Origin: an uncultured Geobacter sp.
Lineage (GTDB): Bacteria; Desulfobacterota; Desulfuromonadia; Geobacterales; CAIOGM01
DNA: 57,931 bases
Reading direction: 5' to 3'
Assembly: GCA_903857795.1 (NCBI GenBank)
Contig: CAIOGM010000148.1
Span: 1 to 57,931 of the forward strand
The first letter of the stretch is position 1. Every line of letters begins with the position of its first letter. The notes beneath the pieces were generated by a model, which was not told the DNA's origin, did no database searches, and worked only from the letters and a program-made list of their open reading frames with translations. The position numbers and the translations under genes are program-made. Positions 13,327 to 57,758 of the stretch are shown in pieces.

Positions 13327-13731
13327 TTATGTCCAGTCCTGAATGGTCAACCCGTCAATTCTGGCGAAATGGCTCACGTTTCCGGTAACGGGGACAAGGT
13401 CGTTGGCCATGGCGACACCCGCAATCAGAATATCTATATCATCCAGCGGTTGTCCTGACTTTCTGAGCAAAGCGTAGATATTCGCCGAATTGCAGATGCT
13501 TTCTTCACTCAAAGGCACAATGGTATTGCAGCCGACAAATTCCTGAAAAGCAGCCAACTGCTTACGTGCATCGCGGAATTTCAGACCACTGAGAACTTCA
13601 TAGTAGGTGATAATACTGAGGGAAATCGTGTTGTGGTTTGCAAGATATTCCCTGAAGTGGGATAGAACCCGCGTATGATTTCTGAAAAATTGTGAAAGAA
13701 TATCAGTGTCAATCAGTACGGGTTTCATCAT
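13327..13731 (-). CDS. PIN-domain toxin (VapC type)
   Basis: About 134 residues. PIN nuclease acidic residues are visible: Asp in MKPVLIDTDILSQFF, Glu in IITYYEVLSGL and the Asp pair in QPLDDIDILIAGVA, followed by PVTGNVSHFARI. VapC toxins are ribonucleases that cut tRNA or rRNA. The start is taken as one of two adjacent ATGs (13731 or 13728) because GGAAGG lies just before them; an ATG at 13746 would place that site inside the coding region. It overlaps the upstream antitoxin gene. Confidence 0.87.
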   Translation of the reverse strand: MMKPVLIDTDILSQFFRNHTRVLSHFREYLANHNTISLSIITYYEVLSGLKFRDARKQLAAFQEFVGCNTIVPLSEESICNSANIYALLRKSGQPLDDIDILIAGVAMANDLVPVTGNVSHFARIDGLTIQDWT

Positions 13732-13981
13732 CTCGCCTTCCAGCAAAAGCCGAATGCCGCCGTGTCGTTATCTCCTCACTGAACTCTTTGAAGTCACTCT
13801 CTGGCATATCCGACCAACTTCCGGCAAACTTCAACACTGTTTTTTCGTTGTCACATGTTTTTTGTAATCCTATCCGGAAGTAATGGAGGAAGTCGTAGAT
13901 CTCGGCAAGTTTGTTTTCCGGCATCTGGTCGATTTCATCAACGACCTTGTTTCTCAAGAGCGATGCACTCAATGTCGTCAT
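13709..13981 (-). CDS. Antitoxin of the PIN-toxin module (DUF2281/VapB-like)
   Basis: 90 residues. The N-terminus (SASLLRNKVVDEIDQMPENK, LAEIYDFLHYF) is a short helix-turn form typical of DUF2281-type antitoxins. The C-terminus (FAGSWSDMPESDFKEFSEEI, TRRHSAFAGRRDDE) is charged and flexible, as expected of a toxin-wrapping segment. It overlaps the toxin start and ends in hydrophilic residues. The pair forms one operon. Confidence 0.8.
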   Translation of the reverse strand: MTTLSASLLRNKVVDEIDQMPENKLAEIYDFLHYFRIGLQKTCDNEKTVLKFAGSWSDMPESDFKEFSEEITTRRHSAFAGRRDDETRTD

Positions 13982-14111: not shown

Positions 14112-14142
14112 GGGGCGAAGCAGGTGAACCTTGCTTCACCCC
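14112..14142 (+). repeat. REP-like palindrome, copy 1
   Basis: A hairpin-forming element starting GGGGCGAAGCAGGTGAAC and ending TTGCTTCACCCC. The reverse complement of 57729-57758 matches it at 27 of 30 positions, so it is a dispersed repeat. It lies just upstream of a REP-associated transposase gene. Confidence 0.6.
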
Positions 14143-14149
14143 TACATAA

Positions 14150-14175
14150 GTAAGGGGGGACGGTAAGGGGGGACG
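14150..14175 (+). repeat. Tandem 13-bp repeat GTAAGGGGGGACG (two copies)
   Basis: GTAAGGGGGGACG occurs at 14150-14162 and again directly at 14163-14175. The second copy runs into the left inverted repeat of the RAYT element. Confidence 0.7.
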
Positions 14176-15250
14176 TTCATGCAATTATGCGTTGCCTTTC
14201 CCTAAAAACGTGGCACTATTCTTGGCATGCCCCGTCAAGCACGCATAGACGCCCCTGGCGCAATCCATCACATAATCTGCCGCGGCATCGAGCGCCGCAA
14301 GATCTTCTCAGATGATACTGACAGGGACAGATTTCTCGTGCGCCTCGGACGCCTTGTCAGATGCACCCGCACCACATGCTACGCATGGGCCCTGATTCCC
14401 AACCACTTCCACCTCCTGCTTCAAACGAAATCAGTTCCGATAAGAACCATTATGCACAGATTGCTCACCGGGTACGCGGTTGAGTTCAACCGCCGGCATT
14501 TCCGAACCGGACACGTGTTCCAGAACCGCTACAAATCAATCTTGTGCCAGAAGGAGAGCTACCTTCTCGATCTTGTCAGGTATATCCACCTCAACCCGTT
14601 TCGTGCGGGAATCGTAAAGGACCTGACAGCCCTGGCCAGTTACCCCTATTCCGGTCATCGTCAACTCATGACCGGCTCAGGTTCGGATTGGCAGGAAACA
14701 GGCGAGGTAATGGGACTGTTCTCCCCCGCACAATTATCGGCGCGTGAGAAATATCAAGCTTTCGTTGCTGACGGCGCACGTCAGGGTAAGCGTGAGGACC
14801 TCATCGGAGGTGGCCTTATCAGAAGTTCAGGTGGGTGGGAGGACGTCAAAAACGCTCAAAAAGCCGGAATATTCCTTTGGAGCGACGAACGTATTCTGGG
14901 CGATAGTGACTTTGTCGATGAGGTGCTGCACTCAGCAAAGGAGACCAAACTGGCGAAAAAGGGTCAGGTAGTCGATCTGCCGGAATTGTCCAAACGGGTG
15001 GCGGAGCGTACAGGTATCGATGTCAAAGATCTTTTCAGGAAAACCAAGAAGCCCGAGGTCGTAAGATCAAGAAGCATTCTCTGCTATCTTGCCACCCGGA
15101 ATCATGGTATCACAGCCACGGCCTTGGCCGCGACGATAGGCATGAGTCAATCTGCGGTAAGTCGGGCGGCAGAACGTGTTGAAATCATTACCGGGGATGA
15201 TGACTGGTAATTTTTCAGGCACGCAACGCATAATTGCATGAACGTCCCCC
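14168..15250. mobile_element. RAYT element with 28-bp perfect inverted repeats
   Basis: Positions 14168-14195 and 15223-15250 are exact inverted repeats (left arm begins GGGGGACGTTCATGC, right arm ends GCATGAACGTCCCCC). They enclose a single transposase gene with 31 bases on the left and 12 bases on the right. Extra G/C bases flank both ends. Most REP-associated transposases are domesticated and lack such complete ends, so this unit may be movable. Confidence 0.6.
14227..15210 (+). CDS. REP-associated tyrosine transposase (Y1 HUH family)
   Basis: 327 residues. The N-terminal domain starts MPRQARIDAPGAIHHIICRG, contains the HUH metal site in ALIPNHFHLLLQT (about residues 57-69) and the catalytic Tyr helix ESYLLDLVRYIHLNPFRAG (about residues 116-134). 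It is the single-strand DNA-cutting Y1 type, which recognises REP hairpins. The extra C-terminal 130 residues (LSKRVAERTGIDVKDLF, and a helix-turn-helix ITATALAATIGMSQSAVSRA) resemble a DnaA-C/sigma-like DNA-binding domain found in longer RAYTs. Confidence 0.9.
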   Translation: MPRQARIDAPGAIHHIICRGIERRKIFSDDTDRDRFLVRLGRLVRCTRTTCYAWALIPNHFHLLLQTKSVPIRTIMHRLLTGYAVEFNRRHFRTGHVFQNRYKSILCQKESYLLDLVRYIHLNPFRAGIVKDLTALASYPYSGHRQLMTGSGSDWQETGEVMGLFSPAQLSAREKYQAFVADGARQGKREDLIGGGLIRSSGGWEDVKNAQKAGIFLWSDERILGDSDFVDEVLHSAKETKLAKKGQVVDLPELSKRVAERTGIDVKDLFRKTKKPEVVRSRSILCYLATRNHGITATALAATIGMSQSAVSRAAERVEIITGDDDW

Positions 15251-15482
15251 TCCCCCCATTGTTTTGCACACTGAAGAATGCCCCCTCCCAGCACCCCGAG
15301 GGACACGTCTACGTGACCTCCTCCTCTCTGCAACTGTGACTTACATCCACGGTGGCGGTCAAAGCGGGCGGGATCGAGCGGGAGGGAAGAGGAGTGGTGG
15401 TTCCTGCTTGCCGCGAGTGCCGGATCAATGATAGATTGGCATTCAGCAATCAAGGTCAATGCCACACCATGGAGGTATCGTC

Positions 15483-15704
15483 ATGCCACAACCAGCTGTC
15501 GCCGAACTCTTTTCTCTGAGTATTCCGGAGAGAATCCAGTTGGTCGAAGATATCTGGGACAGTATTGCCGTCCACCCGGAAAAGGTTGATCTGACCCCGG
15601 ACATCAGGGCCGAACTGGATAAACGTCTTGAGGACCATCGGCAAAATCCTGACGACGTATCGACGTGGGACGAAGTCAGGTCGCGATTATGGCGTGCGCT
15701 GTGA
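15483..15704 (+). CDS. Addiction-module antitoxin (putative addiction module component family)
   Basis: 73 residues from the ATG that follows GGAGGT by six bases. MPQPAVAELFSLSIPERIQL, VEDIWDSIA and the C-terminal HRQNPDDVSTWDEVRSRLW match the small alpha-helical antitoxins that precede RelE/ParE-like toxins. The last 16 bases overlap the toxin gene. Confidence 0.87.
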   Translation: MPQPAVAELFSLSIPERIQLVEDIWDSIAVHPEKVDLTPDIRAELDKRLEDHRQNPDDVSTWDEVRSRLWRAL

Positions 15705-15997
15705 AGTATCGGGTTGTCGTACGATCAAAGGCAGAAACTGATATGGCAGATGCCGCCCTGTGGTACGAGGCTCGCAACCCCGGTCTCGGCACTGAGTTTC
15801 TTCGCGCTGCCGATGGATGTATCTCGTCGGTTGTCCGTAAGCCTGAGTTGTACGCCGAACTATATCGGGGCGTCCGGAGAGCGTTATTCCGAAGATTCCC
15901 GTATGGTCTCTTCTTTCTCGTTTCCGGCGATTGCATTACCATCATCGCCTGCCTCCACGGGAAGCAAGACCTCGACCGTCTCAGGCAACGCAGATAA
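15689..15997 (+). CDS. RelE/ParE-family toxin
   Basis: About 102 residues. YRVVVRSKAETDMADAALWY, ARNPGLGTEFLRAADGCIS, RGVRRALFRRFPYGLFFLV and the end CITIIACLHGKQDLDRLRQR are typical of ParE-like toxins paired with the preceding antitoxin type. The start inside the antitoxin reading frame indicates coupled translation; a GTG five codons later is an alternative. Confidence 0.87.
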   Translation: MACAVKYRVVVRSKAETDMADAALWYEARNPGLGTEFLRAADGCISSVVRKPELYAELYRGVRRALFRRFPYGLFFLVSGDCITIIACLHGKQDLDRLRQRR

Positions 15998-16119
15998 TGC
16001 TATTCATCTGAATCGGCACTTTGCGGAAACGTGGATAGTGGTCATGACGGGAATGATAGGAATCGTTTGACATCCGCCCGGTGTACTGCTAGAAAGGACC
16101 TTACAATTTAACCTATCGT

Positions 16120-16297
16120 ACAGGTGCTTACGTCGGACATCGGAACCATCCGATCCAACGCGAGTTAAAAGGGAAGAGAGTTAAAATCTCTCGCTGTCCC
16201 GCAACTGTGAACGGTGATGAAAGCCGCAACAACGCCACTGATTTTTTCGGGAAGGCGCGGCGAGTAAAGTGACCCGTGAGCCAGGAAACCTGCCTGT
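16120..16297 (+). promoter_or_regulatory. Cobalamin (B12) riboswitch
   Basis: The conserved elements occur in order: P1 arm ACAGG, GAGTTAAAAGGGAA, the B12 box core GCTGTCCCGCAACTGTGA, GCCACTG, GGGAAGGCG, GAGCCAGGAAACCTGCC, and the closing arm CCTGT. It precedes cobU by about 100 bases. Expected action: adenosylcobalamin binding lowers expression of the nucleotide-loop and cobalt-uptake genes downstream. Confidence 0.93.
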
Positions 16298-16372
16298 GAC
16301 GACTGTTTCATCAGCACCTCCGCAGGAGAGGCGCAGAAACCCGTCCGCCGTACTCCCTCCCCGGTTTTCTCA

Positions 16373-57694: not shown

Positions 57695-57728
57695 GAGGGG
57701 GCTGGGATAGACTCAATACACTGTCATA

Positions 57729-57758
57729 GGGGCGAAGCAAAGTTTACCTGCTTCGCCC
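57729..57758 (-). repeat. REP-like palindrome, copy 2
   Basis: GGGGCGAAGCA...TGCTTCGCCC forms a hairpin and, read in reverse, matches the copy at 14112-14142 at 27 of 30 positions. A CTCTTCTT tail may also end the lipoprotein transcript. Confidence 0.6.

Follow-up and report, generated by a model that had tools for sequence, protein, structure and literature searches.

A probable TIRYT mobile element of an uncultured Geobacter sp. and covariation of its DnaA-like HTH domain with half-sites in the terminal inverted repeats

Elements of the IS200/IS605 group carry subterminal hairpins and no long inverted repeats, and are served by a transposase of about 150 amino acids without an HTH. For the TIRYTs, the available part of their description (PMC3733652) reports gene-less repeat dimers and clusters in some genomes, as well as a motif, GGGGWSAS, which is common to some of the terminal inverted repeats, others being unrelated, so that it is no requirement for all TIRYTs. 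Subclass 2.1 of the TnpAY1 transposases probably corresponds to TIRYT according to the authors of the 2018 classification, who, in the portion of their text available, reported no REP-like sequences near subclass 2.1 genes and suggested that the C-terminal domain may not recognise a target or recognises a new one (PMC6006769). The role of the DnaA-like domain was left open in this way, and its reading of the ends was doubted. Here we describe an element in a window of 57,931 nucleotides (the whole stretch of DNA analysed, contig CAIOGM010000148.1 of an uncultured Geobacter sp.), for which comparison with relatives points to the inner half-sites of the ends as the target of this domain.

The element is a 1083-bp unit (14168-15250) consisting of a perfect 28-bp inverted repeat around one intact Y1 transposase gene. 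A repeat search placed the left arm at 14168-14195 (plus strand) and the right arm at 15223-15250 (minus strand), 100% complementary and 1027 nt apart, which confirms the exact 28-bp repeats claimed in an earlier note on this DNA and supports its view that the ends are complete. An inverted repeat arising by chance was excluded, since pairing the upstream region of one relative with the downstream region of another gave scores with a median of 8, a 95th percentile of 13 and a maximum of 21 in 400 draws, compared to 28 for the element. Module borders derived from 119 aligned elements divide the left arm (plus strand) into the core GGGGGACG (14168-14175), the spacer TTC (14176-14178), half-site 1 ATGCAATT (14179-14186) and half-site 2 ATGCGTTG (14187-14194). 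The right arm shows the same modules running inward on the minus strand (core 15250-15243, spacer 15242-15240, half-sites 15239-15232 and 15231-15224), and the 2 × 8-bp site of the ends reads ATGCAATTATGCGTTG. A single 28-nt end does not form a stable hairpin (−2.0 kcal/mol, z −0.18). The 13-mer GTAAGGGGGGACG, noted before as duplicated at the left end, is indeed present twice in tandem on the plus strand (14150-14162 and 14163-14175), both copies being exact. As its 3′ part, GGGGACG, is the outer part of the inverted repeat, the 13-mer represents a duplication of outer flank plus core that ends immediately after GGGACG.

A short palindrome (14113-14148, no strand assigned), whose reverse complement begins with GTAG, abuts the left end; it is a repeat of its own that was probably there before the element and does not belong to it. 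Palindromes of about 33 bp with a GTAG-starting reverse complement are also located at 57727-57758 and at G000:C153:17781 and C150:18312, with few copies in the genome and its congeners. The element lies between two toxin-antitoxin pairs, a gene for a VapC-like PIN toxin preceded by a small partner (13327-13981) and, just to the right, a PF09720 addiction-module antitoxin with a ParE-type toxin (15459-15997). In the congener G002 (L164, 2259-2516), the sequences that border the VapC-like pair are joined to each other, suggesting an empty site for these two genes. Farther right, a cobalamin riboswitch (109 bits, 16105-16311) is situated ahead of the cob genes.

The complete ORF between the repeats (14227-15210, plus strand, ATG start) encodes a protein of 327 amino acids that contains a Pfam Y1_Tnp domain (E = 4.2e-10). 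The histidines of the HUH motif H60-F-H62 (codons at 14404-14412, plus strand) and Y119 (codon 14581-14583, plus strand) are invariant in a 35-member alignment, confirming the proposed complete Y1 transposase; Tyr119 is presumably the catalytic residue, judging from the family. The Y1/HUH domain (residues ~1-140) is followed by a linker or mid domain and a C-terminus resembling DnaA domain IV (~256-322). This C-terminus scored 29.8 bits against Pfam Bac_DnaA_C, slightly below the gathering score of 31.5, and was matched to DnaA chains by profile alignment. A structure model built from 35 relatives (mean pLDDT 84.8) had the REP-bound tyrosine transposase 4er8 as its nearest fold, followed by the IS608 and ISDra2 transposases, and its C-terminus matched DnaA domain IV (1j1v with a TMt of 0.75 and an rmsd of 1.9; 3pvp was also matched). 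The Pfam, profile and fold matches support the extra DNA-binding domain of the earlier note and characterize it as a DnaA-like HTH. Within it, helix 308-322 of the model begins at residue 308, and codons 308 (Gln) to 313 (Arg), at 15148-15165 on the plus strand, mark the start of the recognition helix.

With these properties the element fits a TIRYT, combining an HUH/Y1 domain with a DnaA-domain-IV-like HTH, and not a classical RAYT; the protein likewise fits the TIRYT / TnpAY1 subclass 2.1 group. The transposase is RAYT-like with HUH and Tyr, the long terminal inverted repeats (28 bp, perfect, beginning with GGGGGACG) are unrelated to GTAG REPs, and the Bac_DnaA_C-related HTH characteristic of subclass 2.1 is present. 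The core GGGGACGT agrees with GGGGWSAS at six of eight positions and differs at the last two. The name RAYT, under which the gene had been noted, did not hold in the strict sense and was rejected, as the protein reached 64.3 bits against a cut-off of 80 for the equivalog NF047646 and the ends lack the GTAG hairpin REPs of a REPtron, the GTAG-type palindrome standing on one side only. The IS200/IS605 arrangement of subterminal hairpins without long inverted repeats was not found either. CGTC-tagged REPs were considered as products of the family, the ends reading CGTCCCC on the other strand, and dropped, CGTC REPs having 8-9-bp stems and an unpaired tag.

For a comparison of the ends, 151 family members were reduced to 147 by removing those more than 95% identical, to 126 with an inverted repeat score of at least 12, and finally to 119 with a GGGAC core, full arms and no N, which were aligned on GGGAC; the core is common to all 119 by this selection. 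Each end in these relatives consists of GGGGACG, 3 bp and two direct 8-bp half-sites, which are alike at both ends of one element and different between elements. The self-match at a lag of 8 was 0.57 in both arms versus 0.32 after shuffling, with 0.23-0.37 at other lags, and a 9-bp period was seen by eye in a minority of elements. No inverted repeat was detectable in six similar relatives of G069 (L346-L351), possibly a domesticated branch. A sister group (L094, L095, L096 and L101:2149-3096) has ends such as GGGGTCAGG or GGTGTCAGG and likewise seems to possess direct 8-9-bp repeats, as well as arrays in which flank and core are repeated in tandem, for example CCAACCGTAGGTGTCAGG. N-terminal transposase fragments in several genomes (L107, L120, L121, L026) end around residue 100-109, shortly ahead of the catalytic tyrosine.

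The duplication at the left end of the window's element is one of a recurring kind. In 34 of 230 ends, compared to 13 of 1077 other GGGAC sites, the GGGAC core was repeated upstream in an exact run of at least 11 bases. Most of the 34 runs start 5-13 bases outside the core, and 14 of them stop 6-7 bases into it, directly after GGGACG or one base further on. Possible causes compatible with this pattern are inaccurate strand transfer and re-copying at a nick close to the core.

The half-sites vary together with the HTH. Distances between the inner 16 bp of the ends correlated with HTH distances given the Y1 and mid domains (partial Mantel r = 0.27, p = 0.001, 999 permutations), whereas the HTH link was not significant for the spacer and the outer flank; a small association of the Y1 domain with the half-sites remained (partial r = 0.08, p = 0.016). 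Columns 308 and 313 ranked as the top two of 242 variable protein columns. Analysed base by base, column 308 ranked highest for bases 10 and 18 and column 313 for bases 12 and 20, each pair representing equivalent positions in half-sites 1 and 2, 8 bp apart. Elements with Gln308 had A at left base 18 in 36 of 37 cases, compared to 2 of 82 without Gln, and those with Arg313 had G at right base 20 in 26 of 28 cases, compared to 3 of 90 without Arg. Counting independent pairs over all branches of a tree of residues 1-245 gave about 7 same and 0 opposite for Q308 with left base 18, and about 8.5 versus 0 for R313 with right base 20, the controls being null in both cases. In a profile alignment, residues 308 and 313 correspond to His434 and His439 of E. 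coli DnaA (DnaA residue numbers counted by hand), both of which are listed as base-specific contacts in the available parts of PMC7561715 and PMC5043019. These findings suggest that the DnaA-type HTH binds the half-sites directly. With some reserve, we favour the view that TIRYTs carry a natural evolving code, in which the His434 equivalent would read base 1 and the His439 equivalent would help to read base 3, the resulting private key being common to the element and its gene-less palindromes and open to re-setting through changes of a few residues in one helix.

A further set of elements was drawn over the phylum, in which 88 loci yielded 86 full-length ORFs, 84 of them with flanks. Removing elements with at least 85% identity to the discovery set or more than 90% to one another left 77, which before end filtering had a median identity of 58% to the discovery set; 67 of these had a score of at least 12, and 65 also the core. 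Among the 65, Q308 was accompanied by A at base 10 in 15/17 elements versus 1/48 without it in the left arm (p = 1e-11) and in 16/17 versus 1/48 in the right arm (p = 4e-13). The corresponding values for A at base 18, in the second half-site, were 16/17 versus 10/48 and 14/17 versus 6/48. For R313 and G at the third base we obtained 10-12/19 versus 8-14/46 (p = 0.05 to 0.006), left base 12 giving 11/19 versus 14/46 (p = 0.05). Controls were null, and the lag-8 self-match was 0.52. The Gln308 rule held outside the discovery set; the Arg313 rule was clearly weaker.

Copies of the element were searched for in its own genome (4.05 Mb, 179 contigs), where the 28-bp ends are present once. One full-length paralogue with 45% identity (C30) and several fragments were detected there, with ends of like design and different inner sequence, and close to the edges of two contigs (C32 and C62) lie right ends of another member, 95.7% identical and with different outside flanks. 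GGGGACGTTC was found at 24 sites of this genome compared to 11 for the control and was not used as evidence. In the congener G002, contig C290 matches window positions 14167-15250 at 87.7% identity (blastn), bounded by the inverted repeats and at an unrelated locus; blastn detected no flank homology in the 20 kb compared. Since the homology stops at the inverted repeats and the flanks are unmatched, the unit appears to have moved as one piece. What G002 has between ysxC and cobU is a relative of about 52% identity with other ends. In a second congener, G001, the right flank is kept from about 15262 on and a 70-bp gene-less palindrome with another key is found there, the sequence to the left of the kept flank (G001:C340) being a different one. 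The closed genome G012 contains two copies, 99.6% identical over 1116 bp and 2.9 Mb apart, whose shared stretch extends about 10 bp past the core on the left side and farther than that on the right side. A precise empty site was not detected in the genus. Element-bounded homology at different loci, as seen for G000 versus G002 and for the G012 copies, makes mobility within the genus well supported by sequence comparison. According to the earlier note, finding only one copy, identically flanked in every relative, would argue against a potentially active element. The element is single in its own genome, but a search of the three congeners did not reveal it between these flanks in any of them; the signs of mobility agree with the note, and comparison suggests that the element may be active at present.

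Short elements with the same ends and no gene, which the note had proposed to look for, are absent from the own genome and present in G002. Allowing up to 3 mismatches, the end search returned 28 sites in G002, two each in the own genome and G001, one in G003 and none for the control. At least seven places in G002 consist of two inverted ends a few bases apart without a gene, and for one of them the predicted fold is an almost perfect hairpin (−32.3 kcal/mol, z −14.7). Five G002 palindromes, C9, C52, C148, C321 and C343 (L180, L183, L184, L189 and L190), have common outer tags beyond the core, like GAGAT on the left and GGTAGGA on the right, as if 7-10 bp outside the core travel along. In 58 relatives a loose pattern matched 59 sites and the reversed control about 90 (summed from the table); because the control exceeded the true sites, counting palindromes by pattern alone was rejected, and only matching arms were taken as evidence. 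Arm agreement was scored for all 59 sites, and the inner arms agree at 13 or more of 19 positions in 32 of the 59, from 15 genomes, compared to 0.4% expected after shuffling. Of 27 strings picked by eye from the 59 sites, 7 without resident arms in the set were dropped, and the arms of the other 20 (11 genomes) are closer to an element of the genome they come from than to elements of other genomes (mean 14.65 versus 11.08, p = 0.0006). The palindrome key is mismatched to the resident element at hand in G012, G032, G045, G051 and G055.

From the anatomy, the covariation, the out-of-sample prediction by residue 308, the different loci within the genus and the resident-like gene-less palindromes, all of them seen by comparing sequences, we consider it likely that the unit of about 1.08 kb is a TIRYT mobile element (TIRtron), whose HTH reads the half-sites as a private key, whose HUH/Tyr119 domain cuts near the core and whose gene-less ends are mobilised as well. 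The DnaA-type HTH would read the two direct 8-bp half-sites (ATGCAATT ATGCGTTG) of each terminal inverted repeat, base 1 of the half-site being set by residue 308, where the recognition helix begins, and base 3 with the help of residue 313. The HUH/Tyr119 domain is predicted to cut and join one strand near the shared GGGGACG core. Since the key of one end recurs inverted at the other, a pair of inverted ends is proposed to form the substrate whether or not the gene lies between them; in single-stranded DNA they could pair into a stem bearing the half-sites. End pairs that lack the gene would depend for their movement on a resident enzyme of matching key, and imprecise handling may leave tandem duplications of flank and core such as the 13-mer.

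Several other readings have to be weighed against this. The half-sites might be operators through which the DnaA-like domain represses or times its own promoter, the covariation then reflecting autoregulation rather than end recognition. The left end starts 59 bp upstream of the transposase start codon, the distance in most relatives being 45-70 bp, which would be a suitable place for an operator, but the right end, which lies downstream of the gene, has the same key, as do palindromes in which there is no gene to be regulated, and a consensus scan detected no promoter-like hexamers between the left end and the gene. We therefore regard an operator function in place of end recognition as improbable; both roles may coexist. 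That the inverted repeats are relics around a domesticated, immobile host gene, the protein doing something else, appears still less probable. RAYTs are widely thought to be domesticated, and the exact ends occur once in their own genome, which would suit such a gene. It is hardly compatible with the element-bounded homology at different loci between congeners, the nearly identical dispersed copies in G012, the intact catalytic residues and the palindromes resembling the residents.

Least probable, in our judgement, is that the covariation reflects common descent only, HTH residues and ends having been passed on jointly while no physical recognition takes place. The best tree has just 7 changes of Q308 and 12 of R313, and well-supported branches alone yield too few pairs (1-2 independent pairs, no power), as such a history would allow. 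However, the HTH correlation persists after the Y1 and mid domains are removed and is confined to the half-sites as compared with spacer and outer flank, it involves two specific columns, each at two bases 8 bp apart, which align to DnaA base contacts, and the 308 rule predicts the ends of the distant out-of-sample elements. Recognition of the half-sites by the HTH of a mobile TIRYT remains the preferred reading. With the contact positions named and the effects of single substitutions predicted, the function of the DnaA-like domain becomes directly testable. The code would moreover account for the unrelated-looking ends among such elements, and by the rule gene-less palindromes can be assigned to the transposase that possibly mobilises them.

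Compared with known systems, the RAYT/TnpAREP of E. coli with its REPs and REPINs (4er8) offers the nearest fold and likewise paired inverted ends with or without a gene; its REPs are recognised as folded single-strand hairpins with GTAG, as stated in the available part of PMC8266576, whereas here the ends carry direct half-sites and a single end lacks a stable hairpin. The TnpA proteins of IS200/IS605 (IS608, ISDra2) have the HUH/Tyr core fold in common with our transposase. DnaA domain IV (1j1v, 3pvp) has the C-terminal fold and the base-contacting positions in common, but DnaA reads a 9-bp box of set consensus, whereas in our elements the equivalent residues vary together with an 8-bp target. 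The TIRYT / TIRtron elements of Di Nocera et al. (2013) likewise combine a RAYT-like Y1 transposase with long terminal inverted repeats, some of GGGG type; 8-bp tandem half-sites, a connection of the ends with the protein domain, and duplications of terminal inverted repeat flank plus core are not mentioned in the available part of that paper (PMC3733652). The same holds for half-sites, covariation and flank-plus-core duplications in the available part of PMC6006769, and accounts elsewhere are possible. In the classification of Quentin et al. (2018, PMC6006769), the TnpAREP-type core of TnpAY1 subclass 2.1 (2.1.2) is likewise extended by a Bac_DnaA_C-like C-terminal HTH. What is chiefly new here is that the DnaA-like helix is linked to the half-sites; of the two possibilities suggested by these authors in the text available, the covariation argues for a new target, the inner half-sites of the terminal inverted repeats.
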